This document shows positions 6,191-32,476 of a stretch of 64,000 nt of DNA, in pieces (position 1 is the first letter of the stretch; every line of letters begins with the position of its first letter). This DNA is from Cymbomonas tetramitiformis. Lineage: Eukaryota; Chlorophyta; Pyramimonadophyceae; Pyramimonadales; Pyramimonadaceae. The stretch covers positions 1 to 64,000 of the forward strand of contig LGRX02003681.1 of NCBI GenBank assembly GCA_001247695.2. Reading direction: 5' to 3'. The translations under genes were made by a program, and so were the position numbers. Below the pieces are notes generated by a model. The model saw only the letters and a list, made by a program, of their open reading frames with translations. It made no database searches and was not told the DNA's origin.

Positions 6191-6214
6191 TTTTTATTAT
6201 CTACGTATAATAAA

Positions 6215-7421: not shown

Positions 7422-7440
7422 TTTATACTATATATAAAAA

Positions 7441-8491: not shown

Positions 8492-8499
8492 GGATTTTC

Positions 8500-8605: not shown

Positions 8606-8611
8606 TCACTC

Positions 8612-10766: not shown

Positions 10767-13247
10767 AGGGACACAATCTCCCAGCAGTCGGACTCGAAGT
10801 TCCTGCGTGCGTTGAAAGCGGAGTACACCCGAGAGGGATCACTCCGTTCGCTGCGAGAGAAGGTGAAGGCGGCGCCACACCAATGCCTACAGGACTTCAG
10901 GCTGGTGGGTGAGGTAGTTTGGAGAACCGCAGCAGGGAGATATCAGTTGGTGCTGGGGGAGGATTCTCCACTTCGGGAGGTAGTGATTCGTCATGCTCAC
11001 GAGCCATTGTCCTCAGGTCACACTGGGCGAGACAAGACTCTGGAAAGAGTGCTGCGACGCTTTTATTGGCGTGGTGCTGCAGAGGATGTGGGCACCTGGG
11101 TTGCATCCTGCGCGGTGTGCCAATCAGTGAGACCGCGGGGAACTTACCCGGATGGGTTGCTAAACCCTCACAGCATCCCGAACAGACCATGGCAAGATGT
11201 TGCGGTGGACTTCGTCACCGGCCTGCCAATATCAGAGAGGGGTAATGACGCTTTCGTGGCCTTCACGTGCAAGCTGACGAAGATGGTCCACGTTGTACCG
11301 ATGAACTTCGGCGACAGCTCCGCAGCTGTGGTGGCCAGAATCTACTTTGACTCGGTGTGGCGCTTGCATGGTGCACCTATGAAAATTGTCTCTGACCGTG
11401 ACCCGCGGTTTCAAGATGCCTTCTGGCAGGAGCTCATGAGACTGATGGGTGTGAAAGTGGCTCGCACCACGCCGTACAACCCTCGGTCTAACCGCCAAGC
11501 GGAACACAGCAACAGAGTTATTGAAGACATGCTCAGGTCCTTCGTAGACGCCAATGTGGAAGACTGGGACCTGTTCACCACTAACGTGGAGTTCGCGATC
11601 AATGACTCCAGAAGTGAATCTACTGGCTTCACGCCATTTGAGCTAGTGGTTGGATTCTCGCCGCTGTCGCAGTTGGACCTTTTCCTGGAGGCCGCGCAGT
11701 CCACCGCTGGACGACGAACAGGGGGAGTAGGTACCGCACACGAGGTGGCCGCGAAATTTTCGTCGCAGCTGCGGGACGCCAGGCAGCGGTTGGAGCTGGC
11801 TCAACAGCGCCAGCGCGAGCAGTTTGATCGCAGGCACGGACAGCGGGAGTATGCTGTTGGAGATCTGGTCTGGATAGAAGCGAAACATCTTACAGAGAAG
11901 GTGATGGATCGCTCCATCTGTAGGAAGTTGACCAAGCGCTGGCATGGTCCGGTCCCTGTGACCGAACGCTTCTTCAGTGATGTGCAGATGACCATGCCAG
12001 AGGCTGACAGGGGAGCTCCAGTAGCCTACCGCCTACGCCTCCCTCCACACTGGCGGATACACGACGTGTTCGCTCAACACCGCCTCAAACCGTACACCAG
12101 CGGTCAAGATGCTTTCGCCGCGCGAGATCACCTAGCAGTACCTGAAGAGGTGGTAGTGGACGGTCAGAAGGAAGCACACGTTGAGCGTATTCTTGCACGC
12201 CGGGTGCGGTCTGTTCGAGGAAAAGAGGTGGAAGAGTGGAAGGTTCGCTGGACCGGCTACTCCAAAGCTCACGACCAATGGAGGACGCGTGACAAACTCG
12301 AACGCGGAGGTCCACTTCAACAGCTTCGTGAATTCGAGCAAGCGAGACTGCACATGGAAGCACAAGTTCGCGACGAAGCCACTCGGCGACGCGAGCAACG
12401 TGGCCGTCACTCTGCTCAAGCTGGAATGACACTGGCTCACCTCATCACTAACCCCTGCGATGAACTGGACCAGCTCGAACAGATGGAACATGATATCCCT
12501 CTGCCGTGGGAACGTCAAGAGCGTACGGAAGATGGGTCGTTGGCACTGGTGACAGAGCTGCTGGCAATACAGACGGAAGTAACTCGCATGCCCAGAATTC
12601 TTGTACTTTTCAGCGGCACTGGCTCAGTAGAGAGAGAATTCCTGAATTGCTTCCCCTCCGCTTCAGTGGTGACCCTCGACTCCGAACACATCTGGCATCC
12701 CACTCATGTGCATGACATCCTACAGTGGGACTACAAACAATACCCGCCTGGATTCTTCGATGTCGTTTGGGCAGGTCCCCCCTGTAGGCAGTACAGTCAA
12801 GCGCGCACCACTGGAGGACCCCCTGATCTTCCCCAGGCTGACAAAATCGTACGGCGAGCATTGCAGATCATTGACTACTTGGAGCCAAAACATTGGTTCA
12901 TGGAGAACCCCAGAGGTCGCTTCCCCAACGCGCTGCGGCTTCGCCCCATGATGCGTCAACTTCCTCCCCCGCTGGTGTGTACCTACTGCATGTACGGCAC
13001 GCAATACATGAAGCCCAGCTGCATATGGACGAACTCAGCACCACCCACGCCCCTGCTACGCTGTACTGCTTCGACACCGTGTGCGTGCAGATGGGCAACC
13101 GGTGCTCATCCAGAGACTGCTCAGCTGGGACCTCATCCGCAGCAGACTGGAGCGGGCCAATCCGCGAGCGTATATCCCGTGCCAGCGCCCCTGCTGCGAC
13201 AACTTTTTCGACATTTACGCCTCCGCAAGACTGAAGACCCGCTTTAG
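10767..13247 (+). CDS. Ty3-type integrase-chromodomain-C5-methyltransferase polyprotein, 5'-truncated
   Basis: Numbering is from 10629, where the open frame begins in fibre sequence. The H2C2 zinc finger (HAHE...CAVC, about 122-164) precedes the integrase triad Asp194 (AVDFVTGLP), Asp256 (VSDRDPRF) and Glu292 (QAEHSNR). A GPY/F-like SH3 region follows, then a chromodomain (about 515-560, WKVRWTGYSKAHDQW). From 654 comes a cytosine-C5 methyltransferase: motif I VLFSGTGS, motif IV AGPPCRQYS with catalytic Cys, motif VI MENPRG, and a YGTQYMKPSCIWTN segment. Protease, RT and RNase H are absent. Cytosine methyltransferases captured by Ty3 retroelements are known from some algae and dinoflagellates (de Mendoza et al. 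2018). The last 60 residues may include a frameshift. Confidence 0.85.
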   Translation, partial: RDTISQQSDSKFLRALKAEYTREGSLRSLREKVKAAPHQCLQDFRLVGEVVWRTAAGRYQLVLGEDSPLREVVIRHAHEPLSSGHTGRDKTLERVLRRFYWRGAAEDVGTWVASCAVCQSVRPRGTYPDGLLNPHSIPNRPWQDVAVDFVTGLPISERGNDAFVAFTCKLTKMVHVVPMNFGDSSAAVVARIYFDSVWRLHGAPMKIVSDRDPRFQDAFWQELMRLMGVKVARTTPYNPRSNRQAEHSNRVIEDMLRSFVDANVEDWDLFTTNVEFAINDSRSESTGFTPFELVVGFSPLSQLDLFLEAAQSTAGRRTGGVGTAHEVAAKFSSQLRDARQRLELAQQRQREQFDRRHGQREYAVGDLVWIEAKHLTEKVMDRSICRKLTKRWHGPVPVTERFFSDVQMTMPEADRGAPVAYRLRLPPHWRIHDVFAQHRLKPYTSGQDAFAARDHLAVPEEVVVDGQKEAHVERILARRVRSVRGKEVEEWKVRWTGYSKAHDQWRTRDKLERGGPLQQLREFEQARLHMEAQVRDEATRRREQRGRHSAQAGMTLAHLITNPCDELDQLEQMEHDIPLPWERQERTEDGSLALVTELLAIQTEVTRMPRILVLFSGTGSVEREFLNCFPSASVVTLDSEHIWHPTHVHDILQWDYKQYPPGFFDVVWAGPPCRQYSQARTTGGPPDLPQADKIVRRALQIIDYLEPKHWFMENPRGRFPNALRLRPMMRQLPPPLVCTYCMYGTQYMKPSCIWTNSAPPTPLLRCTASTPCACRWATGAHPETAQLGPHPQQTGAGQSASVYPVPAPLLRQLFRHLRLRKTEDPL

Positions 13248-15371: not shown

Positions 15372-15645
15372 CCCAAATATAGGCTGAAATTCAACCTATA
15401 TATGAGCTGAAATTCAACCTATATATGAGGCTATATATGAGCTGAAATTCAGCCTATATATGAGGCTATATATGAGCTGAAATTCAGCCTATATATCACC
15501 TGAATTTCAGCCTATATATCACCTGAATTTCAGCCTATATATGAGCTAAAATTCAGATATAGGCTGAAATTCAGCCTATATGTGAGGCGATGTACAAGCT
15601 GAAATTCAGCTTATATATGAGCTGAAATTCAGCCTATATATGAGC
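15372..15645. repeat. 22-23-bp palindrome-rich tandem repeats
   Basis: Units of the type GCTGAAATTCAGCCTATATA alternate in both orientations; GCTGAAATTCAGC is itself a palindrome. The array ends abruptly at the left end of the retroelement. Confidence 0.85.
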
Positions 15646-15862
15646 TGTCGCAAACGCGTGCATATGATGGTACAAACATTCTCGGAATCGGACGAACTTA
15701 ACACTCGCGACTGGTCATAAGCGTCATTAACATTCACTGGTGTCGGTAACTGTTCGAGCAATTCTCAACACAGCATAAGATCGTAAAGCTACAAAATTTT
15801 TAAAATTCTGATATCCTGAGATCGAACGCTGAACTCTTACATGCAAGCCCAGATTTCTAACA
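15642..15862 (-). repeat. Partial LTR (B half), outer left
   Basis: About 220 bases nearly identical to 16387-16605, ending in AGCT against the tandem-repeat array. It begins TGTTAGAAAT on the minus strand, immediately after the CATACTTTTTCA end of the full LTR. Confidence 0.85.
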
Positions 15863-16605
15863 TGAAAAAGTATGAAAACAGCAGTAAAATGTATCCGTCA
15901 AAATTGACATTATATCACAAAATACGAATTATTGTGTACAAAAGCTGTGAGCAGAACTGTCTTAGCAATCTAGCACTGGCACGCGAACAGCCACCTAGCA
16001 CTTGCGAAGGCAAAACAATAATGAGTCCACTGCTCTGACCTTCGGTCAGAGGTCACTTATCTCTCAATGCTCTGTCACATTTCCCAAAACTGTAACGGGT
16101 TCTAGCCCTCGAATCTTCATCTGGCCAATGGAAAGTCATTATTCCATGCCAGCTTTAATACTGTTACCGCTTAACACATTCTGACTGACACGTCAGTGGC
16201 AAAGGAGTCACTGCCGTCGTCATCGTATCATTCCTCAGTAACCTGATATTGACAATATCTTCTCTGACAAGTCTGCATCTCACAGATGGTCATCTTCGCA
16301 AAGCCTGTCATACTGTCACCACTGTCATGCGTGTCACCAGCTGAACAAACCCGGCGCGGTACCATGAGAAGCCGGCGTTTGTTACAGCTGTCGCAAACGC
16401 GTGCATATGATGGTACAAACATTCTCGGAATCGGACGAACTTAACACTCGCGACTGGTCATAAGCGTCATTAACATTCACTGGTGTCGGTAACTGTTCGA
16501 GCAATTCTCAACACAGCATAAGATCGTAAAGCTACAAAATTTTTAAAATTCTGATATCCTGAGATCGAACGCTGAACTCTTACATGCAAGCCCAGATTTC
16601 CAACA
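15863..16605 (-). repeat. Full-length 3' LTR (743 bp)
   Basis: On the minus strand it starts TGTTGGAAAT right after the purine tract and ends CATACTTTTTCA, the canonical TG...CA form. The A half matches 27306-27834. Confidence 0.85.
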
Positions 16606-16613
16606 TCCCCCAT
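16606..16613 (-). other. Polypurine tract
   Basis: ATGGGGGA on the minus strand lies directly against the TG of the 3' LTR. This is the expected plus-strand primer site, and it fixes the LTR boundary. Confidence 0.7.
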
Positions 16614-16642
16614 CTGTAGCTGCTGCGTGCAGTAGCACAGAC

Positions 16643-17851
16643 TCAAATATGGGCTTGTTCAGCATACTGGGTCGTATCATCATCTGCCATGAACTTGCCC
16701 AAGCTGAAAGTGAACATACCAATGCCTTCACCTTCTCCGCCCTGTAACATTCTGGCTCTGACCAGCGGATTCTTGAACACCAAGACCCACATACACCTGC
16801 GGCCAATAGGTCCATGTTCCAGATGCCCAATCACATGCAAGCGTCCTGTCTGACTCAATCGTCTGAAGTACGCAGCCCTGCTCTCGGTCATGTCTGTCAA
16901 GTAATAAGATGGAACGTGGACACATGCCACCACACGACTGGCCATTACTGCCAACGGAAACGCGATATCCAGCGCTGCGAACCAAGGTGAAGTCACCACT
17001 GCGTCACAAACGCCATACTTCTCCTTCCATATGCGATAGTTACCTGGCTGAAGTGCGTCATGCGCCTCAGACCAACCCAACTGAGAGTTCCAGTCATTGT
17101 TCATGAATCTCAACTGCGGCCATTGCTCCACCATCACCTCACTGATGACCCCAGTGCCTGCCCATGGGTCCCACACGCCATCGACGGACTTCCAGTCCAC
17201 CTCTGTCGCCAAACGCCTCACCTCAGAGGGCACTGTGATGACCAGTTCAAGCCCCCACTGCAGCGCGCTAGCTTCTCTCACCTGAGCCTTAGTCATGTGT
17301 CTCAGCTCTCCTCGTCTTTCAACTTCTTCTTCAGCCAACGCAGGCACAAGAGGTGCATCCCTCAGATGCCTTGCCATGGCCTTCTGTTCCCGATATTTCT
17401 TGCTCAGCACCGTGCGATGCCCCTCATTCCAATGCCCTGGCATGAAGATCTGCACAGCCTCAGAGAGCTTGTCCTGTCTTCCCCAATCAATCTGATCTGG
17501 CATGCCCAAGAACATGTCCTCCTCTTTCAACAGCATCTCCCTTGATGAGATGGCATGCCAAGGCTGAAACTTGTCTCCCTTCACCACCCGACGGGGACCC
17601 ACGTCTGCTGGCAACAGGCGCATCTCCGCGGACAGCTTCTCATTCAATTGCTGCTCCTTCATGCCCAGTCTATCCTCTAGGGCACCAGGACTCTCATCTT
17701 TCTGGGTCTGCACCTCAGCGTTGGCGGCTTGCATCCCCGTGCCTGAGCACCTGGGACATAGCCACTCGCCTTCTGGTACTCCATCCAGTGCTGGGGTCAG
17801 ACACCACAAGTGGTACCCCCTGTTGCATGCATCGCACAACAACATCTCTGC
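16643..17851 (-). CDS. PHD-finger C half plus Rossmann methyltransferase-like domain
   Basis: The 400-residue frame opens with MLLCDACNRGYHLWCL then EGEWLCPRC, the second half of a PHD zinc finger. The first half ends the frame at 18455. A charged linker (about 40-220) leads to a methyltransferase-like fold: motif I VWDPWAGTG (224-232, SAM-binding), acidic NDWN (250-253), and SPWF at 286-289 in the place of the NPPY/F catalytic motif of N6-adenine methyltransferases. C-terminal strands contain CMWVLVFK. The replaced motif leaves catalysis uncertain. PHD fingers read histone H3 tails, which here would fit targeted integration. In the uninterrupted element this is the C-terminus of pol. Confidence 0.7.
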   Translation of the reverse strand, partial: AEMLLCDACNRGYHLWCLTPALDGVPEGEWLCPRCSGTGMQAANAEVQTQKDESPGALEDRLGMKEQQLNEKLSAEMRLLPADVGPRRVVKGDKFQPWHAISSREMLLKEEDMFLGMPDQIDWGRQDKLSEAVQIFMPGHWNEGHRTVLSKKYREQKAMARHLRDAPLVPALAEEEVERRGELRHMTKAQVREASALQWGLELVITVPSEVRRLATEVDWKSVDGVWDPWAGTGVISEVMVEQWPQLRFMNNDWNSQLGWSEAHDALQPGNYRIWKEKYGVCDAVVTSPWFAALDIAFPLAVMASRVVACVHVPSYYLTDMTESRAAYFRRLSQTGRLHVIGHLEHGPIGRRCMWVLVFKNPLVRARMLQGGEGEGIGMFTFSLGKFMADDDTTQYAEQAHI

Positions 17852-18457
17852 ATTTTACCGGGTAAAGGATTTTCGGCCTTGGTAATACCGGTAAAATTAC
17901 CGGTAATACTTTACTGGGTAATACCGTGGTAATACCGACGTGCGAGGGACTCTCAAAACCTTGCCCACGAGGCCATTCTCTCTACACACACTTTTGCGCA
18001 CTGCCCCCACGAGGCCATTCTCTCTACACACACTTTTGCGCACTGCCCCCACGAGGACATTATCTATACACACACTTTTGCGCACTGCCCCAAATGTCCG
18101 ATTCCGACATTTTTAAATGGGTATGGCACCGCCACGCAGGCCCGTCAACGAAAATGTTGAGTAAAGTTTCGATGAGACGAATTCACGGAACCACTACCCA
18201 TGGATGGCGGCTGGTAACCTGGTATGGTAGTCACGGATTCATGGTAACACAGGGGTAAAATGGGGTAAAATCGCGATTCCAGGTGGTAATACCGATGGTA
18301 ATACCAAAATGGTATTACCAATGGTAAAGGATTTTGGGAATTTGGCACTTTACCACACTAGAGCATGGTAAAGGATTATGGGCCTTGGTATTACCGGTAA
18401 AATTACCGGGTAATACCGGTAAAGGTATTACCAGTGGTAAAACCAGTGCCAGCCTTA
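17852..18457. mobile_element. 606-bp insertion with 18-bp target duplication in the PHD finger
   Basis: The 18-mer GCACAACAACATCTCTGC occurs at 17834-17851 and again at 18458-18475, flanking the insert exactly. Removing the insert and one copy joins the two PHD halves in frame (CEVCRKTDGEAEMLLC to DACNRGYHLWC). The insert is rich in GGTAATACC/GGTAAA words at both ends and carries a three-copy ~55-bp repeat (CCCCACGAGG.CATT..CTACACACACT) at 17960-18085. It has no ORF. A long duplication points to target-primed (LINE/SINE-type) insertion rather than a cut-and-paste element. Confidence 0.85.
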
Positions 18458-21400
18458 GCACAACAACATCTCTGCTTCCCCATCAGTCTTCCTGCACACT
18501 TCACATGCTAGGTGCTTGCTGGGAACGGCTGCACTGCAGTCATACTGGTCCTTCACCTGTAGGTGACATGGCGCGATGCTCTGTACGGTGCTCTTCTCTC
18601 TTAACTTGGTGGCGTCCTCAAGCACCACCACACCATCTCGCTGTATCTTGACCAGCTTCAGAATGGCAGATTTGGTCGCGACTTCCATGCCGCTGCGTGG
18701 CTTCTGCCTGATGTAGACGAAATCGCCCACCTTAAACTGGTGTGGACTAGGCTCATAGCCCCCACCTCTTCTCCCTTCATAATGTAGTGTATCACGATGC
18801 TGTGCGACCTCTAGGCTGCAACCAGCGTGTACCATCAGTCGCCTCACCATCTGTGCTCTCCGGTGGAGGTCCTTGACTCTGGCATCCTTCTCATCTTCGA
18901 CCTCAGCACCAAAATCTATGCTGGGTGCCTGTTTCAAATCAGGCGGCACTACTGCCTCTTGGGCAAACAACATGGTGAACGGCGCCACCCCCGTGGACTC
19001 CTGGCGTGCTGCATTATAGCTCAGCACTAGTGGCCAGAGCTGCTCATCCCACTCATAATCGAGACCCTTCTCCAAGGCAAGCTTCTTAAAGCAGAACTTC
19101 ATAGTGCGTACCACTCGCTCGGTCAGCCCATTGCCTTCTGGTGAGTCTGGCGAGGTGACTCGCCGGTCGATCAGGCAATCTCTGCACAACTGCTTGAACT
19201 CGCCTTCAAACTCCTTACCTCCATCCACCAAGCATTCTGCCGGCGCACCAAACACAGCCAGGACATGACTGCGAAATGCTGCTGCGATGGTGCTCGCCTC
19301 CTTGTCGGGAATGGGCACGCAGACTATGAACCTGGTGTAGTGCTCGGTCATGATGAGCACTCGGTTGTTGCCAGACTTGGTCTCCCTCCTCGAAGGCCAT
19401 GCCAAATCCAGCGACCAGCGATACATGAACGACACGATCTCAAGGGGGGATAAACATGCCTCCTCTCTCGCATAATGAGTCTTCACACGCTGACAGGTCT
19501 CACACTGAGTGACCACTGCCTCCACGTCTTTCTTCAAATCGGCCCACCAATGGCGCTGCCACAAAAGATGCTGCGTCCGTCTTATGCCCCAATGTCCAGT
19601 TCTGGAGTGGTATTCCTTAACCAACGCGAGACGGTCAGCAGGCTTAGGTATTCTCACCTCCTTGCCCGACATAGTGACCATGTAGATCTCGTCCGTAGCC
19701 TCATCCCATCGATGTCGTGCTGCTCGCCTCCTTACTCGACGAACTTCCTCTTCTGGCAACCTCACTCTACCATTGGACTTCAACCATCTGAGGCACCATG
19801 CATCATCGTGTACATCTCGATGCTTGTCACGGTCAACCTGCTGCTCAGCCACGCTGGCCATCAGGTCCTCGAATCTGGTGGTGCACGCCAACCTGGGGAG
19901 TCTCATCTCTGAATCTTTGGCAGGCGGACTCCAAGCAGGCACATCCAAGCGCGCTGCTGGGGTTGCGCCCTCCTTCACGAAGTGGTTCTCATGCCTCTGA
20001 CGATACTGCGCCACGGTGTAGAGCTGCCACTCTTTCTTCTTCTTCTTCTTCTTGGTTCCAGCCTTCTGTCGCTGGGCTCCAATTCCTTCTGCACCTTTCT
20101 GCCCTTGCGAGCACATTACCCGCAGCTTCTCCTCCCAGTCACGATGGGTCATAGTCTTCGCCACCTGCTGGGTATATGCATTCGAATTCTCAACCCATTC
20201 CGCCAGCAAAGCTTGCCTCTGCTGAAGGTCCGACCTCTCGTGGTCTGCCCAGTTGCTGTCTACAGCGATGGGCTGTCCTGGGGAATTCTCTGCCTCTGGG
20301 GATTCCTCGCTGTGAGGGAGCCCCTTCCTGCTCGCTTCTGCGACCGCCATCAGCAGCTCCATTGCCCTGCGATCCATGGCCAGACCCAGAATGCTTGCCA
20401 ATTCTACGTCGTTCAGGCCATCGGCCATGCGTAGCTCACTTGCGCTGTAGCCCATGGCTCGCGCCTTCTCGTCGAGGTTCACTTCTCGAGATTCTTCCTC
20501 GGCGTCTTCATCGTCCTGGTTGCGCACCACGGTGCCCATTCTCGCTCTCCTGAACGCTCTTGACCCTTGCGTCGCCATGATGGTGGGAAGTGCCCTCAAT
20601 GGTTCTCCCACCACATTCACCACGTAGTGAGGCGCGCGGTCTGTCCTTATCACTGGCCTGGGATGCCAGCCCTTGCATATGATTGACGATACGATTCGTC
20701 CTTCTGGTCTCACCACCTTGCTCATGACGGAGCGAAACTGGTGGCTCTGGAACAAGTTGCTCCAATACGCTCGCAATCGGTGTGCGTAAGCGCCTGCTTG
20801 TGCTGCATCAAAGGACACTGGTCGGCCAATGACGCTGGCAATGTACGGGAACACCTCGTCCCTGATCTTGGTTCCAGGTCTGTGTGACAACGGAGAAACG
20901 TTTTCCAGGATATAGCCTGGAGGCCTCTGCTGCTGCAGCTGCTGGAGTGTGGACAGAAGCCTGACCACTTCATAAAATAATTTGCTGTGCCTGCCATCCA
21001 GGCCTGTGAGTGTTCCAGCAGGGGAGAGATCCTGGCATGGGAACCCACATACCATGACCCACTGGCGTCCTTGAAGAGCTCCTGCTCGTATAAAGTCGGC
21101 ACTGGTGGTGTCGCGCAGATCTTGGGGTAGAGCCCCAAACTCTATTGCACGGGGCGAAATGAGGTCAGGATATCGTCTTAGCAATGCCGTGCACCTGGCC
21201 CTGGCAACTGTTCGACTGCTCGGGGATATGGCCTGATACAGGTAGCGATCCACCTTCATCCCACTGCGGAGCAACATCTCTAGCCCAGCACAGAGGCCTC
21301 CACATGGCTCGTAGCACACCACGCCTTCCTCCCGAGCTTGCGAGAAGAACCGCCTGCCCAGCACCCTGGTGTCCACTTTCTCAGGCTTCAAGATGCGCTC

Positions 21401-22033
21401 ACCTTCAAAGTACTCATTGCTGTACACAGCAGGGCTTCCCTCGCCGTGCGTGCCTCGCGTAGGCCTGACCGGGCTCAACGCCTTCCAAGCTGCTCTGGCT
21501 AGCCTTCCAGAGTCGGTCACCAACTCAGGTAAGTCAGTGTCGAACATGTCCCCATGATTGCATTCTAATTCCTCACGGTAGTGCAAGTCGAACAAACGAT
21601 GCACTGGTCCCGTGCCCAGCTGCTCCATGGCAGCCATCCTGCAGTAGTTGGCAACCTGCACCTCTGGCGTGGCCTCTTCCCCTGGGAAAGCATCCCCAGC
21701 CAACGTAAAGCACAAGTGGTCACAGAAGTCCTTCGTGTGAACTTCCCCCACGCCTGCGTGTAACGCAGTCACCTTCTCCCTCTCATGCCTCGCTCCAGTC
21801 TCATCTGTCGTGGACGGCAGTGGGTAGCGAGACGGCACGTCAGCGTTGCTGTTCTTGGCACCTGGACGATACTTCACAGTGAAGTCGAACTCCTGCAAAC
21901 TGATTGCCCAGCGTACAGTAGGTGTTGCCCTTGGAGATCGGCCTTCTCCATCAGGGTGGTGAGCGGTGAGTGGTCGGTCACCAAAGTGAAGTGAACTCCA
22001 TGCAAGTACTGCCTCAGTGTGCGCACTGCCCAT
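18455..22033 (-). CDS. Pol segment: RNase H end, C5-cytosine methyltransferase, integrase, PHD start
   Basis: A 1,192-residue frame. Residues 40-72 finish the Ty3 RNase H/connection (RWAISLQEFDFTVKYRPG). Residues 238-590 form a cytosine-C5 methyltransferase: motif I YEPCGGLCAG, motif IV GFPCQDLSPAG with catalytic Cys333, motif VI ENVSP at 377-381, an arginine-rich motif VIII-like HRLRAYW, and a C-terminal motif near 528. Residues 800-1050 are the integrase: H2C2 finger (H809...C844,C847), Asp876, Asp937 (LVDGGKEF), Glu972 (TERVVR). An SH3-like segment and CEVC begin the PHD finger. The fusion places a DNA-methylating enzyme between RNase H and integrase. This is not the same lineage as the enzyme at 12,588. 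Confidence 0.9.
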   Translation of the reverse strand: MGSAHTEAVLAWSSLHFGDRPLTAHHPDGEGRSPRATPTVRWAISLQEFDFTVKYRPGAKNSNADVPSRYPLPSTTDETGARHEREKVTALHAGVGEVHTKDFCDHLCFTLAGDAFPGEEATPEVQVANYCRMAAMEQLGTGPVHRLFDLHYREELECNHGDMFDTDLPELVTDSGRLARAAWKALSPVRPTRGTHGEGSPAVYSNEYFEGERILKPEKVDTRVLGRRFFSQAREEGVVCYEPCGGLCAGLEMLLRSGMKVDRYLYQAISPSSRTVARARCTALLRRYPDLISPRAIEFGALPQDLRDTTSADFIRAGALQGRQWVMVCGFPCQDLSPAGTLTGLDGRHSKLFYEVVRLLSTLQQLQQQRPPGYILENVSPLSHRPGTKIRDEVFPYIASVIGRPVSFDAAQAGAYAHRLRAYWSNLFQSHQFRSVMSKVVRPEGRIVSSIICKGWHPRPVIRTDRAPHYVVNVVGEPLRALPTIMATQGSRAFRRARMGTVVRNQDDEDAEEESREVNLDEKARAMGYSASELRMADGLNDVELASILGLAMDRRAMELLMAVAEASRKGLPHSEESPEAENSPGQPIAVDSNWADHERSDLQQRQALLAEWVENSNAYTQQVAKTMTHRDWEEKLRVMCSQGQKGAEGIGAQRQKAGTKKKKKKKEWQLYTVAQYRQRHENHFVKEGATPAARLDVPAWSPPAKDSEMRLPRLACTTRFEDLMASVAEQQVDRDKHRDVHDDAWCLRWLKSNGRVRLPEEEVRRVRRRAARHRWDEATDEIYMVTMSGKEVRIPKPADRLALVKEYHSRTGHWGIRRTQHLLWQRHWWADLKKDVEAVVTQCETCQRVKTHYAREEACLSPLEIVSFMYRWSLDLAWPSRRETKSGNNRVLIMTEHYTRFIVCVPIPDKEASTIAAAFRSHVLAVFGAPAECLVDGGKEFEGEFKQLCRDCLIDRRVTSPDSPEGNGLTERVVRTMKFCFKKLALEKGLDYEWDEQLWPLVLSYNAARQESTGVAPFTMLFAQEAVVPPDLKQAPSIDFGAEVEDEKDARVKDLHRRAQMVRRLMVHAGCSLEVAQHRDTLHYEGRRGGGYEPSPHQFKVGDFVYIRQKPRSGMEVATKSAILKLVKIQRDGVVVLEDATKLREKSTVQSIAPCHLQVKDQYDCSAAVPSKHLACEVCRKTDGEAEMLLC

Positions 22034-22551
22034 ACCACTGCGAGCATCTCCCCTTTGAAGCTGGCGTACTGTCTCTCCGTTTTACTCAGGGATCGGCTGA
22101 TTGCCATGCAAATGTACTCCTTCCCATCATCGTCCTTCTGGCCCAGCACTGCGCCGATGCCATAGGTGCTCCAATCGGTGTACAATATGAGGGGTCTGTC
22201 ATAATCGATAGGCCTCAGGCACCTCCCAGAACAGAGGGCATCCTTCAGTTCTTGAAGTGCTCGATCTTGCTCCTTCCCCCAGGCTCCCTTGATGTCAGTG
22301 ACCTCCTTTTTGAGCAGGTCATTGAGAGGGCGGGCCATCTCAGAGTAGTTTGGCCCCCCTGGCTCACCCACCAAGCCCTTGTAGTAGTTCATCATGACCA
22401 AGATCGAGCGGAGCCCAGTCTTGTCCTGGGGGCTTGGAAGCTCCTGGATGGCCTTGCATTTAGCTTCTTGCGCGCCAATGGAGTTGTGACCAATGCGATA
22501 GCCCAGAAATTCCACCGTGGCTGCACCAAAGGTACTCTTGCCTGCATGCAA
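21874..22551 (-). pseudogene. RT thumb and RNase H segment in a shifted frame
   Basis: Continues the RT coding sense after a frame break near 22540: ATVEFLGYRIG (thumb), then RNase H ILYTDWSTYGIGAVLG with the first catalytic Asp, KGEMLAVVWAVRTLRQYL with Glu, and LVTDHSPLTTL with Asp. Near 21930 the frame breaks again, and the remaining RNase H continues in the 18455-22033 frame. The two one-base breaks separate otherwise collinear domains, so the polyprotein is disrupted. Confidence 0.85.
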
Positions 22552-24464
22552 CGGATGCCAGCGTCCCCCAAGGTGCGAAGTACGTCCTCAACGTCCTTCA
22601 AATGTTGCTCAGGCGTGGAATCCGTGTAGACCACTACGTCGTCGACGTATGCCACCGTGCAATGCTGCAAGTGACGTAACTCGTAGTCCATGATTCTTAC
22701 GAACGCAGAAGTAGCTCCAGCTGCACCAAAAGGCATCGAGGTGTACTGGTACAGCTGATTCTTCCACCAAAACGCCGTCTTGCTCCTGTCCTCTTCCGTG
22801 GCCATGGGAATCTGGTGGAAGGCTTTGGTGGCATCCAGCGTGGTCTTGAACTTAGCCTTCGCCACCTTCTGGTAGAGCTCCTCTGGTCGGTGCGGCAGCG
22901 TATTGTCTTTGAGGGAGTGCCGGTTGACACCCCTGAGGTCCACGCAGAACCTCGTCTGGGTCCACAGGCCAGTCTCGTGGTCTTTCTTGCCAGCTACGAC
23001 CACGTTGCTCGCATGCCTGCAATGCTTGGCTGCTGGCTCTATGAAGCCATACTCCAAAAGTTCCTTGCAATGAATATCGATGATTTCCTGCTCGCCCGGA
23101 CTGTACTTCCTGGGTCTCTGATAGGCGGCCTTGGATTCGTCTACGAAAGGAATGGAGAAGGTGTTGTGCTCCGCCTTGCCCTTGTAGCCTGTCAGATCGT
23201 GAGGACTGTTGGCAAAGGTGGTCTTGCACCTGCGAAGAACATTCCGCATTTCCTCCCAGTGCTCCTCCTTGAAGTCAGGATGTCCTCCAAACGTGACATT
23301 GAGCTCAGTGTCAAGCCACGCTGCCTCGTCCTTGGTCACTGTCGTGTCACCTAGAGGTTGAAGCTCGTCCAACACGGTGTACGGCAAGACCTCATCCTGC
23401 TCCGCGACGTTGGCCACCCAGCCCGGCTCCCATTGCCTTGAGGATTGCTGAGCCTCCCAAGAAGTGCAGGGGGACGAACCCCAGGCGCTGCGTGTGGGTG
23501 ACGTGACATCATACGTAGGCACACACTCGGTCACCTTGCCAGCGACCCACAAGATTCCGCACAAAAGCAGAAAAAATCGCAAAATTCGATCGAAATGCAC
23601 TGCGGCTGCCGGCGAGTTCGAAGCGAAGAAGCACGCCATTACTCTCCACCCCCCGTGCGCCAAGCGAGCACTCCCACCAGCGGCGGTGAAGACCACGACT
23701 GCAAGGACAAGCGCCACGTAGGCGGCTTGCGCGATGCGGTGAAGGCGGAGATTGCGTCGAAGCTGTGTCCAGCGCGCCGCGAAGCGAGGTTTGTCCAATC
23801 TGGTCGGCAGAGCGGGCAGGCGTACGCGGCCCAACAAGAAGACCTGAGACAAGCGCAGGGTCGGAACAGTCCATCCACGGCCATGTCGAATGTGACCTGC
23901 GTCCAGCGGGCAGTGCACGTGACAGGAGGCGTGGCACGCCACGTCCTCAGCGTAAATGCGGGCACAAACCCAAAGCCAGGCGAGGACCACGAGGAGGAGG
24001 GCGGCCGCACACCGTGACCAGCACGCCAAGGAAACGACCACCCCCCGAAGGGGCACCACCATCCAATCCCCTGCACGCACACGGTGCACGCCAGCATAGA
24101 TGCCTGCGGCGCGCACGATAAGCAGCCCAACGTACCAAACGTAGGCGAGAGCCCATAAGACCCAGATGTCGTAAGATGCACGAAGGGGATAACGTCGAGC
24201 AGCCGACCACCATACGGGCAGTCGGCTCAAAAACGAGGCCACGAAGCGCCTCCACCAAACTCGAAAAGGGCACCACGACAAGTGCCAAGCTATTGCCTCC
24301 CACATCGCCCACACGGCGACCACGGGAATGGGACCGCGTCCCAGCCACCACCAAACCACTGCACTGCCCGCAAACGAGATACACGCCCGCAGGACACCTG
24401 GCCTCAAGTGGACCGCCTGTGCAGGCAGCCCACGGCCACAGCGTTGGTCGCTCACCAGGGCCAC
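22392..24464 (-). CDS. Multipass membrane region fused to Ty3 reverse transcriptase
   Basis: The 690-residue frame overlaps the end of gag by 13 bases. Residues 1-330 are strikingly hydrophobic and Trp-rich with about six to seven candidate membrane spans (for example SAVVWWWLG, AYVWYVGLLIV, LLLVVLAWLWV, AYVALVLAVVV, FFLLLCGILWV). No aspartic-protease D(T/S)G motif is visible where Ty3 elements normally have one. Residues about 400-650 are a Ty3 RT: RFCVDLRGVN, TTLDATKAFHQIPM with the first Asp, and YVDDVVVYTD with the catalytic pair. The frame breaks near 22540. Whether the membrane region is translated as part of pol is unproven. GC-rich DNA can keep shadow frames open, but spaced spans make a real protein plausible. 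Confidence 0.7.
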   Translation of the reverse strand: MALVSDQRCGRGLPAQAVHLRPGVLRACISFAGSAVVWWWLGRGPIPVVAVWAMWEAIAWHLSWCPFRVWWRRFVASFLSRLPVWWSAARRYPLRASYDIWVLWALAYVWYVGLLIVRAAGIYAGVHRVRAGDWMVVPLRGVVVSLACWSRCAAALLLVVLAWLWVCARIYAEDVACHASCHVHCPLDAGHIRHGRGWTVPTLRLSQVFLLGRVRLPALPTRLDKPRFAARWTQLRRNLRLHRIAQAAYVALVLAVVVFTAAGGSARLAHGGWRVMACFFASNSPAAAVHFDRILRFFLLLCGILWVAGKVTECVPTYDVTSPTRSAWGSSPCTSWEAQQSSRQWEPGWVANVAEQDEVLPYTVLDELQPLGDTTVTKDEAAWLDTELNVTFGGHPDFKEEHWEEMRNVLRRCKTTFANSPHDLTGYKGKAEHNTFSIPFVDESKAAYQRPRKYSPGEQEIIDIHCKELLEYGFIEPAAKHCRHASNVVVAGKKDHETGLWTQTRFCVDLRGVNRHSLKDNTLPHRPEELYQKVAKAKFKTTLDATKAFHQIPMATEEDRSKTAFWWKNQLYQYTSMPFGAAGATSAFVRIMDYELRHLQHCTVAYVDDVVVYTDSTPEQHLKDVEDVLRTLGDAGIRCMQARVPLVQPRWNFWAIALVTTPLARKKLNARPSRSFQAPRTRLGSARSWS

Positions 24465-27193
24465 CCGCCCGCTGTGCCCGGGGAGCCCTGATGAAAATGC
24501 GTCTGTCTCTGCGCCTCACGTTGTTCGTCCGTATGGCGCTCGAACGCCTGCGTCACTTCGCTGCATATCGAAGCAGCTGGAGAAGGAGGACACCGCGAGG
24601 TAAGACCGACCGGCATCCTAGACGCCCTCGGTGCATGGACGACATGGGTAGCAGTCCCATGGCGATCGACAGAAGGGGCAGACGAGCGCACAGCACCGCC
24701 CGCGCCCGGCTGATGCTCATACGTTCGGCTGGAAGGCTGGCCCTGACGACGTGCAGGGGGGTCGCGAACCTCGTGCACATTCCTTCGCCAGACCGTATCC
24801 ATGTGCTCGGGTCTCTCAGCCACGAGAGCCTGATGGGCGAGCGGCGGCGGCGGCGGCGGCGGCGGGAGACGAAGCGCCTCCAAGGCCCCCAGGGCGGGGA
24901 GCAACCACGGCGCGGCCGTTTCCCTGGTCCCCCACTGCAAGCCTGTGAACTTCCGGTCGTCCTGCTCGAAATACTCATTCGTGAACTCAGCGTGCCAAGT
25001 AAGACACCGCGCGTCCTCCAGGAAGATGTAGTACACGGGTGTGGCATTTGGGTGCGCCATGCAGCGCAGCACGTGTGCCGCCCCAATCTCCACGTAGCTA
25101 CACAGCGAGTACGCGATGTTCCTCGCATGACCCCCTGGCAACCTGTGCCCTGAGTCACGGTGCGACAGATCAGCCCAGGCTGAAATCATGGCCTCCAGGA
25201 GGTTGGAAGACGTAGTCTGTCCCCCAAGAGGGAGACGCCAGCCATTGTTCCCGCACGCGATGGTCTTGTTATGCTTCTTTTCAACTTTGCTGGTGATGCC
25301 CGGATGTCTCCGCAGCCTGAGACCCCGCTCCTTGTTGCACACGCCAAGCTGGTACATGACGCGCTGGCCTCTGCACCGATCATAAAACGTTATGCCAAAC
25401 CGTATCATAAAGACAGTGAGGTTGCGGCGGTCCTTCAAGGCGCTAACCTCCGCCACGGACAGAAATCTGCACACTGAACTGGCGGATGTGGTGGCCATTC
25501 GTGCGGCATCCCAATCTGACCCTGCTGGAGATGTAGGCGCCCTCACAGGGGACCGAGGCAGGCGACCTGCCCGCGGTGGACTCGGAGGCGTAGGAGGCGG
25601 CCCCCCCGAAGAAGGTGATCGGGAATCACGCGCGACACGGAACGAGTTTGCCCACGAGCCAGCGTTGGTCAAGGCGGGCGATGCAGGGGGCGACCTCCCG
25701 CGAGGAGGGCTGTTGTCAGGATCTGACGGACAAGCCGCGGCGGCGCAAACGAATCGAGGCGACACCAAGTCCTCGGGCCCATGGCTGCCGGATGAAGGCG
25801 ACGGTGTACGGCAGTGCGCGATGTGCGCCAAGTGCGGTGGCGAGCGGTCACTGGACCTGGCTCGAGACGGCCCCGCGACAGCTTGAGATGGTCGTGCAAT
25901 GTGCGACGAGCGAGGTGGCGAGTGGCTGCTGGACCTGGCTCGAGATGGCCCTGCGACAGCCCGGGATGGTCCTGCGCCTGCGGCAGGAGCAGGTGGCTGC
26001 GCAGGGGCTCGCTTCGGGAGCCTAACGTTGACCATGTTGTTGGGCGGTGGCGGCCTACGCTCCGCATCTGCCTCGAGTGCATCACGGCCCTGCTGCCTGG
26101 TGTTGGCCGCCTTGAGCATTTTCCTCATTTCCCCCAGGCGCACGTACTCCTGAGCAGCGGCATTCTCGGAGAACACCCTGCCAGTTCCCCCAAGACCATC
26201 CCCCACCGGGTAGTACTTGGTGCTCGAACCCAGGGAGACGAGCTCCAGAGGTGGCGCTTCGCTGCCATGTCGATTGTACTGTCGGAGGATGCCAACCGAG
26301 AGGGACTCCATGTCCACCGGGCAAAGGTACCTGAGCAGCTGGTACGTCCAGACACCAGTGCTCTCGTACCAATGAGGGAGCTGAAGCTCGTTCAGCAACT
26401 CCTCACTGTTGTACACGAGTGCATGATCCAGCGTGCAGCGCATCAGCTCGAGGTACTGCGTGGCTGCGCTCGGTTGTACACAGAGGACACGCTCCTTCAG
26501 ATCCCACATGAGGGTGCCAGCGACCTCACCACTGGGGTACTTGAACAACTCCTGGAGTGTGTGCTGCAGTCGCTGGATTGGGTTGAGGCTGTCGAGCGCT
26601 CTGCCTTGCTCCCTGGGCTTGACGACGTCCTGCTTGTTGGCAGGGGATGGCACGTGTGTCATATAGCTCCCCTTGAGCACCCAGCGGTCCTTCTCCTCAT
26701 CGTGATCCAACTTCTGGTCCACATACAACCAGTTAGGGGGCATCAGCTGGTCCACCGTCACCCACTTCTGCTCGAGACAACGGACGAACTCCACGCAGAC
26801 ATGTTCCTGGGAAGGTTTGGCTGGCATGTCCTCGGGAAGGTCTTGAAGGATGCGGCAAAGACGCGCAACATGGTGCCGGTCCAGGTACAGTCTCTGATCC
26901 GCCCAGTTGTGGTCAAGACGAACGTCCAGAGACGGACGACCCCCAGTCACCTGGCCATCAGTGACCCACCTCGCGCGTCCACCCACCCAGGGGTTCGGTT
27001 CTGCGTAAAGTTGTGCAAGCATGCGTTCCGACACTGCCCGTGCGGCGGGCGCCAGTAACGCCAGGTGGCTCCTTCGACCTCCTTCAAGAGAACATGTGTG
27101 ACTGCGACACCTCTCCTCGATCTCCGCGCGTGTGGCGACTCGGGGTCTAGGGAGCGCAGCAGGTGGCCCTGACGAAGGCGCTGGTGACCCCAC
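24452..27193 (-). CDS. Gag-like polyprotein of the LTR element
   Basis: A 913-residue frame starting about 110 bases inside the partial LTR. Residues 60-400 look folded and alpha-helical. Residues about 400-570 are Pro/Ser/Arg-rich repeats (AVAGPSRARSS twice). Residues 570-760 are a second folded region with Cys/His (CNKERGLRLRRHPG; HVLRCMAH). A Pro-rich tail follows. No CCHC knuckle is visible. Position between the LTR and the RT frame, and the 13-base overlap with pol, support gag; no sequence family was recognised. Confidence 0.6.
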   Translation of the reverse strand: MGSPAPSSGPPAALPRPRVATRAEIEERCRSHTCSLEGGRRSHLALLAPAARAVSERMLAQLYAEPNPWVGGRARWVTDGQVTGGRPSLDVRLDHNWADQRLYLDRHHVARLCRILQDLPEDMPAKPSQEHVCVEFVRCLEQKWVTVDQLMPPNWLYVDQKLDHDEEKDRWVLKGSYMTHVPSPANKQDVVKPREQGRALDSLNPIQRLQHTLQELFKYPSGEVAGTLMWDLKERVLCVQPSAATQYLELMRCTLDHALVYNSEELLNELQLPHWYESTGVWTYQLLRYLCPVDMESLSVGILRQYNRHGSEAPPLELVSLGSSTKYYPVGDGLGGTGRVFSENAAAQEYVRLGEMRKMLKAANTRQQGRDALEADAERRPPPPNNMVNVRLPKRAPAQPPAPAAGAGPSRAVAGPSRARSSSHSPPRSSHIARPSQAVAGPSRARSSDRSPPHLAHIAHCRTPSPSSGSHGPEDLVSPRFVCAAAACPSDPDNSPPRGRSPPASPALTNAGSWANSFRVARDSRSPSSGGPPPTPPSPPRAGRLPRSPVRAPTSPAGSDWDAARMATTSASSVCRFLSVAEVSALKDRRNLTVFMIRFGITFYDRCRGQRVMYQLGVCNKERGLRLRRHPGITSKVEKKHNKTIACGNNGWRLPLGGQTTSSNLLEAMISAWADLSHRDSGHRLPGGHARNIAYSLCSYVEIGAAHVLRCMAHPNATPVYYIFLEDARCLTWHAEFTNEYFEQDDRKFTGLQWGTRETAAPWLLPALGALEALRLPPPPPPPPLAHQALVAERPEHMDTVWRRNVHEVRDPPARRQGQPSSRTYEHQPGAGGAVRSSAPSVDRHGTATHVVHAPRASRMPVGLTSRCPPSPAASICSEVTQAFERHTDEQREAQRQTHFHQGSPGTAGGWPW

Positions 27194-27305
27194 CGGTGAA
27201 TCATAGCCGTCATGGATGTGCTCAGACTGAATCCCAGAGGCAGCAAACCTCTCCTCCCTCGTGCTCAGGGGTGGGTGCCCTAGCCATTCGCACTCCGTCC
27301 CGTTT

Positions 27306-27834
27306 TGAAAAAGTATGAAAACAGCAGTAAAATATATCCGTCAAAATTGATATTATAACCACAAAATACGAATTATTGTGTACAAAAGCTGTGAGCAGAA
27401 CTGTCTTAGCACTCTAGCACTGGCACGCGAACAGCCACCTAGTACTTGCGAAGCAAAACAATAATGAGTCCACTAACTTGACCTCCGGTCAGAGTCTACT
27501 TATATCTCAATGCTCTGTCACATTTCCCAAAACTGTAACGGGTTCTAGCCCTTAAATCTTCATCTATCTGGCCAATGGAAAGTCATTATTCCATGCCAGC
27601 TCTAACAATGTTACCGTTTACCGCATTCTGACTGACACGTCAGCGGCAAAGGAGTCACTGCCATCTTCATCTTATCATTCCCTGGTCATTCGATAGTGAC
27701 CATATCTTCTCTAGCAAGTCTGCATCTCACAGATGGTCATCTTCGCAAAGCCTGTCATGCTGTCACCACTGTCATGCGTGTCACCAGCTGAACAAACCCG
27801 GCGCGGTACCATGAGAAGCCGGCGTTTGTTACAG
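27306..27834 (-). repeat. Partial 5' LTR (A half)
   Basis: 529 bases matching the A half of the full LTR, from TGTAACAAACG to CATACTTTTTCA. The B half expected to its right is absent; TCGATA-rich flanking DNA starts at once. Confidence 0.85.
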
Positions 27835-28014
27835 ATACAATCCGATATCCGAAAAACGGTATCGATAATCGGCACAATCGATAAATAATCGATTACTTGG
27901 ACATTTATATGTAATTTGTTATAAATTAAATATGGAACACCAAAACCTGCACAATCGATAGTTAGACATTGCAATCCGATAATCGGCGATAAATACGATA
28001 TATCGATAGTATCG
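27835..28014. other. TCGATA-rich flanking DNA hosting the DIRS element
   Basis: About 180 bases without a gene, rich in ATCGATA/ATCGG words. The same composition resumes at 42337 (ATCGGAAATATCGATATAG), showing that both sides belong to one pre-insertion locus. Confidence 0.7.
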
Positions 28015-28094
28015 GTTTTCTAATCAGCTGCGGCTACATAGCCCAGCTTGCATGACACATATGACACATATGTGAATGGAACCCGGCCGGTGCA
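28015..28094. repeat. DIRS terminal repeat B2 (80 bp)
   Basis: Identical or nearly identical to 28831-28910, from GTTTTCTAATCAGCTGCGG to GGCCGGTGCA. It ends the element at its left border. Confidence 0.9.
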
Positions 28095-28676
28095 CTGCGT
28101 GTGGAATTACAAAATAATAATACGACATATCCAGAAGTGCCAAAAATCAAGGACTCCCGTCAGACAGGAATCAGGGTCCCACGACCCGACTGCCGACCCC
28201 AGCCTTCTGCATGCGGGCACACGCCCCTCGTGCCAAAGGACTGAGGCCTGCATACACTATCATTACCCTAATAAAGAGTACAGACTATGGACCTAAAATG
28301 CTATGCTAGGGCTGAAACCCTCAAAAAGCATAATTACCCGCTCCAGCTCAGAGTCAGGCATGACAGCAATAGCAAAGCCATCACCTAGCAAAGCCTACTG
28401 AACAGTGCCTAGATGAGAAGCAGCATGAGGTAGCTTCGCAGCCCCCCACCGAAGGATCACTATAGCTACCTCTCATCACAGCGGTCGGCACTGAACAGGC
28501 ACAGGTCCTAGTCTCCTCTACCTACACTCTAATGAGCCGACTGCCCCTCTGCGGGCCGGATCTGCACGGCCTCCAGCTCAGAGCCCAGCTGCTCCAGGTC
28601 CTCCAAGTCCTGCAGCTCCTGCACTGAAAGCGGCCTCTCCTCATCCGTACCTGAATCACAAGGGAGGGCGGGTGGG

Positions 28677-28910
28677 AAAGTCCACACAATCACAGTAACA
28701 CGGCAAGAGGCCCTCTCAGTCCGTAGCTGGCCTCTTAAGGCCTCCGACTGATCAGAAAACCTCAGTTTTCAGATCTGCTCCGGATGACAGTCATACTGCC
28801 TGTCATCCTACACTGATCAGAAAACCATCAGTTTTCTAATCAGCTGCGGCTACATAGCCCAGCTTGCATGACACATATGACACATATGTGAATGGAACCC
28901 GGCCGGTGCA
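28677..28910. repeat. DIRS internal repeat junction A2/B1
   Basis: A2 (28677-28833) matches A1 at 42181-42336. B1 (28831-28910) matches B2. The join at GTT reproduces the circle junction from which the element would integrate. Confidence 0.9.
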
Positions 28911-30082
28911 AGCACACAAAGATCACCACAAAGCAGTGCACGTGTAATGCATGACAACAACAAGCAATCAGACAAGAAAGGCCGCCTACTCTGCTGAGCA
29001 TGGGGCATGCTTCTGGACACCGCCAGCCTGCGGTTGAGGTTGGTAGCTTTGTAGGTGGCCGCAGCCGCCGACGAGCTCCAGCCACCGTACTGATTGAACT
29101 CGAAATCAGTAACCTGGTCAGCCGCAGCCACCGCCGTAGCCCCACCAGACCGCAGGGACTGGGTCCCATACAGCTGCCTCAGAGCATCGGGGTCCAAGTC
29201 AGAAGCCTCACCCAGCATCCTGAACAGGTACCTCCTCAGCTGAGGATAGTCCAGCCTCTTCCCCGTCAGGCAGTCAGCCGACGGGTCCCGCTGAAACCGC
29301 CTGCCATCAATCTGCTGAAACAGGGGCTCGTCGGGCTGCACTCCCCGTGCAATCTGAGTGTCAACCCACCTCTGACTGACCTCCACTGGGCACAAAGGCT
29401 GCCCCTCCGCCGCCCGGGCAACCTCCACCAGCTGACCATACCTGTACTTGTCCGTCTTCCGCTTCTCGAGGAAGGTGGTCATGTGGGTCTCACAGAACTT
29501 CATATCCCGCAGTCTCACCTTCTCCGCACAGTCATACCGCCAGAAGCCTGTCCACATGTCCAAACCCAGTGTAGCAAACATCTGCCGAGTGACACCTCCC
29601 AGCATCAACCAGCAACGAGCACCACTCTGCACAAATGCAAACTCCAGCGGCTCCTTCCTGTTGAGCCGCCTGTCCCCCAGCCTCCTGTGAGCTGCCTCCC
29701 GCACCGCGGCCACCAGCCGATGAGAGGTGGGGTTCCGGTCCGCCGGGACCAGAGCCAAATCATGAGCAGTGAAAACCATAGCCGAAGCGGTCTTCACCAC
29801 AGAGAAGGTCCTGGCCGCATTGGCTATGTACTGCAAGTACATAGCCACCGTGACCGGGTCGGCAGGAACAGGCACCCTAGGTGGGTCACGGTCCTGACAG
29901 AAAGCCTGGTACCGTACGAACACCCGAGAGTAGCCCCGCATGGTGCTAGCCTCACGGGTGCCAGACACCGCCAACAGCATGTCTGCCCGCAGCTGCATCT
30001 CCAGCGGGTCCGTCACGGAGAACTGCAGCCCAGCCCACTGCTCCCCAGTGCCTATGATGCCTGCATGAAAGGCAGCCCCCAT
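28850..30082 (-). CDS. DIRS tyrosine recombinase
   Basis: A 410-residue protein that would integrate the circular cDNA. An alpha-helical N-terminal SAM-like domain (about 30-115) is followed by the catalytic domain. The conserved SLRSGGATAVAA carries the active-site Arg311, GGWSS replaces the second His with Trp335 as in many DIRS enzymes, and the nucleophile is Tyr344 in AAATY. The residue three before Arg, usually His, is Thr here (TQSLR), a possible activity loss. The start overlaps the upstream frame by 31 bases. The final 40 residues read into repeat B1. Confidence 0.9.
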   Translation of the reverse strand: MGAAFHAGIIGTGEQWAGLQFSVTDPLEMQLRADMLLAVSGTREASTMRGYSRVFVRYQAFCQDRDPPRVPVPADPVTVAMYLQYIANAARTFSVVKTASAMVFTAHDLALVPADRNPTSHRLVAAVREAAHRRLGDRRLNRKEPLEFAFVQSGARCWLMLGGVTRQMFATLGLDMWTGFWRYDCAEKVRLRDMKFCETHMTTFLEKRKTDKYRYGQLVEVARAAEGQPLCPVEVSQRWVDTQIARGVQPDEPLFQQIDGRRFQRDPSADCLTGKRLDYPQLRRYLFRMLGEASDLDPDALRQLYGTQSLRSGGATAVAAADQVTDFEFNQYGGWSSSAAAATYKATNLNRRLAVSRSMPHAQQSRRPFLSDCLLLSCITRALLCGDLCVLAPAGFHSHMCHMCHASWAM

Positions 30083-32309: not shown

Positions 32310-32391
32310 GTGGCATTAGCTCAAGAGCTCACAGCTCACAGAGCGCCAGACCTAAAGGTCTGGAGATCTCAGTTCGAATCTGAGATGCCAC
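32310..32391 (+). tRNA. tRNA-like sequence (possible pseudogene)
   Basis: A seven-base acceptor stem GTGGCAT/ATGCCAC, an A-box-like TAGCTCAAGAG, a perfect B box GTTCGAATC within a five-base T stem (CTCAG/CTGAG), and an anticodon-like stem CCAGA/TCTGG with CCTAAAGG between. Departures from a normal tRNA are an 8-base anticodon loop without a clear T33 and an 18-base D loop. Amino-acid identity cannot be assigned; a UAA-type (Leu) anticodon is only a guess. It could be a tRNA-derived short retroelement head inside the TIR element. Confidence 0.5.
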
Positions 32392-32476
32392 ACGCTCAAG
32401 GTGCGTTTTCTCCACCCTTTATGTGCATCGTGCAAGACTAGCATAGCCATATTTTCCATATTAGCCATATTTTCAT

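Follow-up and report, generated by a model that had tools for sequence, protein, structure and literature searches.

Within the 64,000-nucleotide stretch of Cymbomonas tetramitiformis (Chlorophyta, Pyramimonadophyceae) contig LGRX02003681.1 analysed here (positions 1 to 64,000, the window), the minus strand at 15643-27832 carries a Ty3/gypsy-type retroelement that reads, in order, four predicted membrane helices, reverse transcriptase (RT), RNase H, a C5 DNA methyltransferase (DNMT), integrase, a PHD finger and a second methyltransferase-fold domain. Judged by its relatives, the element is a decayed copy from an old lineage of green algae, and comparison of their proteins supports the view that these domains are old, co-inherited parts of one element. 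Retroelements and endogenous viruses have been described as abundant in the C. tetramitiformis genome (PMC10675990).

A Ty3/gypsy-type element with additional domains

Pfam searches of the minus strand returned, in order, RVT_1 (1.4e-17), RT_RNaseH_2 (1.5e-31), DNA_methylase (1.5e-9), Integrase_H2C2 (2.1e-16), rve (1.6e-7, just under its curated cut-off) and PHD (1.1e-9). The RT (22551..23318, frame -3) contains the YVDD motif, the end of RT and RNase H lie at 21910..22551 (frame -2), and the integrase (19139..19642) comprises an H2C2 zinc domain and a DDE core in which the D, D-34-E residues are present. The Pol order RT-RNase H-integrase with a DDE integrase is that of the Ty3 class, and the top PDB match of the family alignment profile, which includes whole polyproteins, is the Ty3 Gag-Pol structure 7q5b. 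A first-pass annotation, made from the letters alone, had described a single minus-strand element at 15642-27834 with this domain order and proposed profile searches as a check; the Pfam matches follow the claimed order and the repeat-structure ends agree with the coordinates.

Tblastn with Cymbomonas proteins demonstrated that this copy switches frame near 22551 and 21910, leaving RT, RNase H and DNMT-integrase in three separate frames. The copy is defective: it is a relic because the Gag-protease part is missing, RT and RNase H are frameshifted, the PHD finger is split by a 606-bp insertion and an acidic residue of DNMT motif II is lost. The proposed self-marking of DNA and reading of histone tails is weakened by this copy, which with its broken frames and lost motif II acid should be unable to do either.

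The domains are shared by distant relatives in the same order

Two protein searches yielded 55 and 89 matches, the second from scoring the best 7987 candidates by shared words. Three distant proteins of metagenome origin, P0077, P0080 and P0081 (31-37% identical), run from RT to the second methyltransferase in one frame and in the same order; these and like relatives are probably green-algal, going by the labels of the named members. The DNMT domain is also found in P0095 (Pleodorina starrii), P0106 (Haematococcus lacustris) and P0090 (labelled Chrzof1, which we read as Chromochloris), and the PHD finger in P0095 and P0090. Fuller members consist of a Gag-like part with protease, a region of ~950 amino acids without known domain, and then the polyprotein. 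In Cymbomonas, the gene products P0056, P0057 and P0059 each contain the larger part of the series and all fall short of it: the DNMT is partly missing from P0056 and P0057, and in P0059 the second methyltransferase finds no match. The element's left end holds a frame of 403 amino acids that is 94-95% identical to CYMTET_52896 and CYMTET_40991.

An RT tree of 65 rows grouped 29 DNMT-bearing rows, together with one Cymbomonas fragment without DNMT, with support of 100/96. RT and DNMT distances were correlated (Mantel r 0.67, 19 rows, 1 of 2000 shuffles as high), also when Cymbomonas was omitted (r 0.40, 17 rows, 2 of 2000), as were RT and second-domain distances without Cymbomonas (r 0.55, 13 rows, 0 of 2000). 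Matches covering less than 60% of the profile were excluded from the domain sets, which kept 33 of 55 DNMT and 41 of 66 second-domain matches. The RT grouping and the correlated distances indicate, therefore, that the domains have long travelled together.

The window is full of mobile DNA and the PHD finger is interrupted, as would be expected had the domains come from separate overlapping insertions, the outcome that the first-pass annotation named as fatal to its reading; to this origin we give almost no credence, because P0077, P0080 and P0081 keep the identical order from RT on in single open reading frames (ORFs) and, at other loci, that order recurs in Cymbomonas genes with neighbouring numbers on one contig (48648/48649 and 15581/15582). 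Nested insertion as the source of the domain order is ruled out by these distant single-ORF proteins, and only the 606-bp insert is foreign.

Scans of viral contigs for DNA of other copies found none, as did a scan of genome contigs. The viral contigs did return C5 methyltransferase relatives of 23-46% identity (80 of 415 loci kept), which we took for viral enzymes.

The cytosine methyltransferase is of the DNMT3 class

The C5 domain (20282..21469) is, by its sequence and predicted fold, a DNMT3-class cytosine methyltransferase: fold and motifs I, IV, VI and VIII agree with that class. PADLOC and NCBIfam gave general C5 methylase matches only. In nearly all rows compared the catalytic residues are kept, namely the Cys in 32 of 33 rows, EN in 33 of 34 and R-x-R in 32 of 34. 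The window copy has all three as well and lacks the motif II acidic residue, the sole such loss in 29 rows. Median identity of the window domains to 17 distant relatives was 39% for DNMT, 39% for integrase and 37% for RT (n=14). These 17 were drawn from the 25 distant DNMT-bearing matches P0075-P0107, leaving out P0087, P0090, P0093, P0094, P0096, P0098, P0106 and P0107, and alignments covering less than 60% of a domain did not enter the comparison: of the 17, three were dropped for RT, one for RNase H and five for the second methyltransferase.

A PHD finger interrupted in this copy

The PHD finger lies in two halves, the first at 18458..18505, the end of ORF 18455-22081, and the second at 17747..17851 (PF00628). 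Between them, as seen from the sequence and the repeat list, is the 606-bp insertion (17852..18457) with an 18-bp direct repeat at its flanks. The finger is unbroken in the gene products P0052 and P0056, from which the insert is absent; a spliced gene model is possible there. Inspection by eye found no GT-AG pair that consistently splits the flanking repeat, and we rejected an intron. The insert contains three 42-bp tandem units and internal repeats of GGTAAAGGATT type.

Nearly all DNMT-carrying relatives that reach far enough possess a PHD finger. Tryptophan at the cage position is typical of H3K4me3 readers. In the 45 proteins fitting a PHD pattern that we composed, the position before the aromatic-His pair was Gly in 43, Leu in 1, Phe in 1 and Trp in none. 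PDB matches of the element's finger include CHD4, KDM5, BAZ2, AIRE and PHF21A, which we take to be readers of H3K4me0. In one distant relative, P0099, a chromodomain follows the PHD finger at about residues 1426-1540, and a Tudor-like stretch occupies this place in other relatives (by eye).

A second methyltransferase-fold domain with uneven motif conservation

Downstream of the PHD finger, the core of the second domain (DPWAGTG ... SPWF) is located at 16730..17242; its fold, of class I, tentatively resembles that of N6-adenine methyltransferases of the M.TaqI/METTL5 type. The usual motif IV of these enzymes is [DNS]PP[FYW], from which the SPWF of the window copy departs; among 42 rows SPPF occurs in P0080 and P0048 only. 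Motif I or IV or both were gone from 10 of 15 distant polyproteins, under a lenient count in which P0084 and P0089 were taken as recognisable; P0014, one of the 11 rows uncounted in the motif tally, is a fragment without the motif I region. Both this loss and the departing Cymbomonas motif IV would be expected of a non-catalytic scaffold throughout the family. Pulling the other way, motif I survives and motif IV reads SPWF or SPPF both in Cymbomonas and in several distant proteins (P0080, P0048, P0081), and the second domain of P0062 is about as conserved as the integrase (77% vs 75%); we put the scaffold reading only a little below an even chance. Marking by two methyltransferases does not hold as a general property, given the catalytic motifs that the second one has lost in many relatives.

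Split direct repeats at the ends

On the minus strand the repeats of this one copy read A1-internal-B1-A2-B2, the split direct repeats of DIRS-type elements. A1 forms the 5' end (27307..27832) and aligns with A2 (15864..16385) at 487 identical columns of 529, with 32 mismatches (22 transitions) and 10 gap columns. The 221-bp repeats B1 (16386..16606) and B2 (15643..15863, the element end) are identical at 220 of 221 positions, and a polypurine-like stretch GATGGGGG (16607..16614, by eye) stands directly upstream of B1. Spanning the B/A junction is an imperfect palindrome (16378..16399, by eye; a single match in the window, 0 expected) whose half-sites make up the element's outer ends. By eye, the bases flanking this one decayed copy are not duplicated. 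The tyrosine recombinase of DIRS/PAT elements is not part of the element, which has a DDE integrase. Of the description "LTR retroelement" the Ty3-type Pol stands, and a simple pair of long terminal repeats (LTRs) gives way to the A-internal-B-A-B arrangement. Abutting the left end, at 15374-15640, are short tandem and inverted repeats of ATATATGAGCTGAAATTCAGCCT type; GAGCTG is common to both.

We considered that the arrangement arose once, by reinsertion of a two-LTR circle through a break inside the LTR or as an assembly artefact, in a family with ordinary LTRs. Opening such a circle at the B/A boundary yields exactly A-internal-B-A-B; the polypurine stretch before B1 means that B+A acts as one LTR; B1 and B2 are far more alike than A1 and A2; and the order comes from a single inspected copy. 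Arguing for a regular feature are the position of the opening at a palindrome whose half-sites are the outer ends, and the identical repeat order published for KnitGypsy-Dnmt3 (PMC5890265). A one-off event is, in our judgement, nearly as likely as not.

ORF1 and the predicted membrane helices

At the right end of the element, 24452..27340 encodes a C-terminal part of ORF1 without Pfam domain. A search that scored the 7995 candidates sharing most words gave 16 matches of the ORF1 frame, all named Cymbomonas. Residue 14 of the window ORF1 pairs with residue 738 of P0149 (1676 amino acids); P0149 has a retropepsin-like DTGA near residue 593, which is not found in the window ORF1. Since the latter starts at about residue 738 of P0149, the Gag-like part and the protease are missing here. 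In the relatives, the Gag-protease region matched Asp_protease_2 at only 0.029, and no Gag family was found. The frames of ORF1 and Pol are compatible with a -1 frameshift, and inspection by eye revealed no canonical slippery heptamer.

Hydropathy predicted four transmembrane helices before the RT and in its frame (23529..24170; individually 24170-24114, 24011-23955, 23735-23679 and 23585-23529), and the region aligned with P0057, P0152, P0073, P0150, P0059 and P0061. The RT had been proposed to be fused to a membrane segment, and this is borne out: all four helices recur in P0057 and P0152, both gene products of Cymbomonas. The stretch could be an artefact of GC-rich DNA that is non-coding or read in another frame: other frames are partly open there too, and of 15 distant N-termini, scanned over their first 300 residues and in some cases beginning close to RT, 14 have no such helices. 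We find this improbable, since the helices share the frame of RT while the alternative frames are broken by 8 and 4 stops within their first 400 codons; in addition, P0059 and P0061, which are more diverged, keep the last two helices with one hydrophobic residue standing in for another, and the distant P0091 has three at the equivalent place. On these alignments we regard the predicted membrane stretch as real for Cymbomonas.

Neighbouring features

Several other mobile sequences occupy the window. A second Ty3 fragment (10308-13247, plus strand) encodes integrase, a chromodomain and, at the C-terminus, a stretch like a degenerate C5 methylase (PF00145, 9.2e-6). Compared by hhalign, the C5-like domain at 12600-13247 matched the element's DNMT at 0.5 and, with single sequences on one side, the second domain at a probability of 3.9, which lends no support to a common origin; the C5-type domain of this fragment is apparently an unrelated capture. 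At 698-8488 (plus strand) lies a remnant resembling a polinton-like virus, with a viral-type DNA polymerase B (3e-12), an integrase core (rve, 9.1e-6, below cut-off) and a lipase-like ORF (2.2e-4, just below cut-off). A DIRS/PAT-like neighbour (28011-42339, minus strand) has its own A-internal-B-A-B repeats (42181-42339, 28827-28910, 28677-28836 and 28011-28094) and, outside the DNMT element, a tyrosine-recombinase-like ORF at 28853-30091, recognised by eye and without Pfam match. The frame of this neighbour that holds NPPF (30055-31032) matched the second domain at an hhalign probability of 0.2, again with single sequences on one side and no support for a common origin. At 38108-41635, direct repeats of 137 nt (100%) and 75 nt (97%), spaced by some 3.3 kb, are probably the ends of another nested element.

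A possible role in chromatin-guided methylation

We propose that the likeliest role of the module is to methylate the CpGs of new insertions de novo, guided by chromatin, and as a whole explanation we give this somewhat better than an even chance. The polyprotein would accompany the complementary DNA (cDNA) into the nucleus, where the PHD finger, devoid of the tryptophan typical of H3K4me3 readers, would steer the integrase to H3K4-unmethylated chromatin. There the DNMT3 domain would methylate CpGs of the fresh insert and its neighbourhood de novo, the two domains cooperating in much the way that ADD and the catalytic domain do in animal DNMT3A, and the methylated copy would thereby be tolerated and silent. 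The C-terminal domain may be an ancestral N6-adenine-type methyltransferase, today partly a scaffold, and the membrane helices may anchor particle assembly at an internal membrane. Anatomy, homology, order, co-inheritance and conservation of the DNMT catalytic residues are the observations from which we infer every functional step. In a published test, retrotransposon DNMTs were able to methylate CpG de novo (PMC5890265).

Several observations weigh against this role. Within Cymbomonas the DNMT diverges faster than the integrase (window vs P0059, 72% and 87%; vs P0062, 66% and 75%), and in P0095 of Pleodorina starrii the catalytic motifs are gone from both the DNMT and the second methyltransferase, both domains themselves and the others being retained. 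CpG statistics, in which we sought a clear scar of heavy methylation, did not reveal one: CpG observed/expected is 0.78 in the element, a mild depletion, 0.99 at the viral stretch 1-9000 and 0.88 at 42000-64000, and only 4 of the 32 A1/A2 mismatches are CpG-type transitions. KMT2C/D, WSTF and DPF fingers, presumably not of the H3K4me0 type, match the element's PHD as well as or better than most, and H3K4me0 as its ligand is a guess. Ty3 elements in general transpose without extra domains such as DNMT or PHD. The rarity of helices in distant N-termini, described above, counts on the same side.

The main rival to a chromatin-guided role is methylation of the cDNA before integration, as self-disguise or protection, with the PHD finger and the second methyltransferase mere accessories of the integrase. 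Such action was considered likely for DIRS-type elements from the position of the DNMT in Pol (de Mendoza et al., PMC5890265), and the DNMT of our element likewise sits within Pol, between RNase H and integrase. This alternative leaves unexplained why a PHD finger is present in nearly all sufficiently long DNMT-bearing relatives, and we hold it to be possible and distinctly the less probable of the two.

The closest published system is KnitGypsy-Dnmt3 of Klebsormidium nitens, which likewise combines a Gypsy-type Pol with a DNMT3-class domain, DIRS-like repeats and conserved key DNMT residues; compared by description, it differs in its charophyte host, and a PHD, a second methyltransferase and membrane helices receive no mention in the text and legends of that source (PMC5890265). 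No Klebsormidium-named protein was among our 89 matches from the best 7987 candidates scored. SymbioDIRS-Dnmt3 of Symbiodinium also has DNMT3 in Pol and A-coding-B-A-B repeats, with a tyrosine recombinase and DIRS-type Pol in contrast to the Ty3-type DDE integrase of the Cymbomonas element (PMC5890265). The first-pass annotation cited capture of DNMTs by Ty3-type elements in some algae and dinoflagellates; this is correct for Gypsy in the charophyte alga K. nitens and not for dinoflagellates, whose reported carriers are long interspersed nuclear elements (LINEs) and DIRS elements (PMC5890265). Chromoviruses and other Ty3 elements resemble ours in a chromatin reader after the integrase, at or near the end of Pol; Gypsy elements of Ectocarpus, with a chromodomain or Tudor domain, are described with no mention of a DNMT (PMC12477816). 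Animal DNMT3A/3B share the catalytic fold and motifs and likewise combine them in one polypeptide with a zinc finger that reads histones (ADD in DNMT3A, PHD here), but the finger type and order differ and the Cymbomonas domain sits in a retrotransposon polyprotein. CrREM1 of Chlamydomonas is a Ty3 element with PHD and chromodomain, the PHD in a separate antisense ORF. A PHD finger is also known from a Ginger1 DNA transposon (PMC2836005), and an opinion paper of 2019 refers, without domain details, to Ty3/Gypsy and DIRS elements that encode DAM and DCM in several groups, green algae among them (PMC6338049). The literature that we searched, with partial coverage, holds no description of DNMT, PHD and second methyltransferase in one Ty3 element; to that extent the claim of novelty stands for the full combination, while earlier work has reported a Gypsy Pol that combines DNMT3 with DIRS-like repeats.

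A wider reading, which we offer tentatively and think unlikely to hold in full, is a chlorophyte-wide Ty3 lineage, dating at least from the split of Pyramimonadophyceae and Chlorophyceae or spread between them, with a chromatin-guided methylation module (H3K4me0-type PHD and DNMT3) and circular, DIRS-like integration despite a DDE integrase; it would include KnitGypsy-Dnmt3 and go back to one old capture of DNMT3 by a green-plant Gypsy element. Earlier work presented retrotransposon DNMT3 as captured separately in dinoflagellates and in one charophyte. In the elements studied here it belongs to an old lineage whose named members come from several green algae, with the catalytic residues of the enzyme kept in most relatives examined and a finger of histone-reading type beside it. 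If general, the pairing of a DDE integrase with DIRS-type repeats would bear on the kinship of integrase and recombinase elements. If the module works, these elements would write a silencing mark on themselves, and the question of a parasite with its own silencer would become testable in algae.

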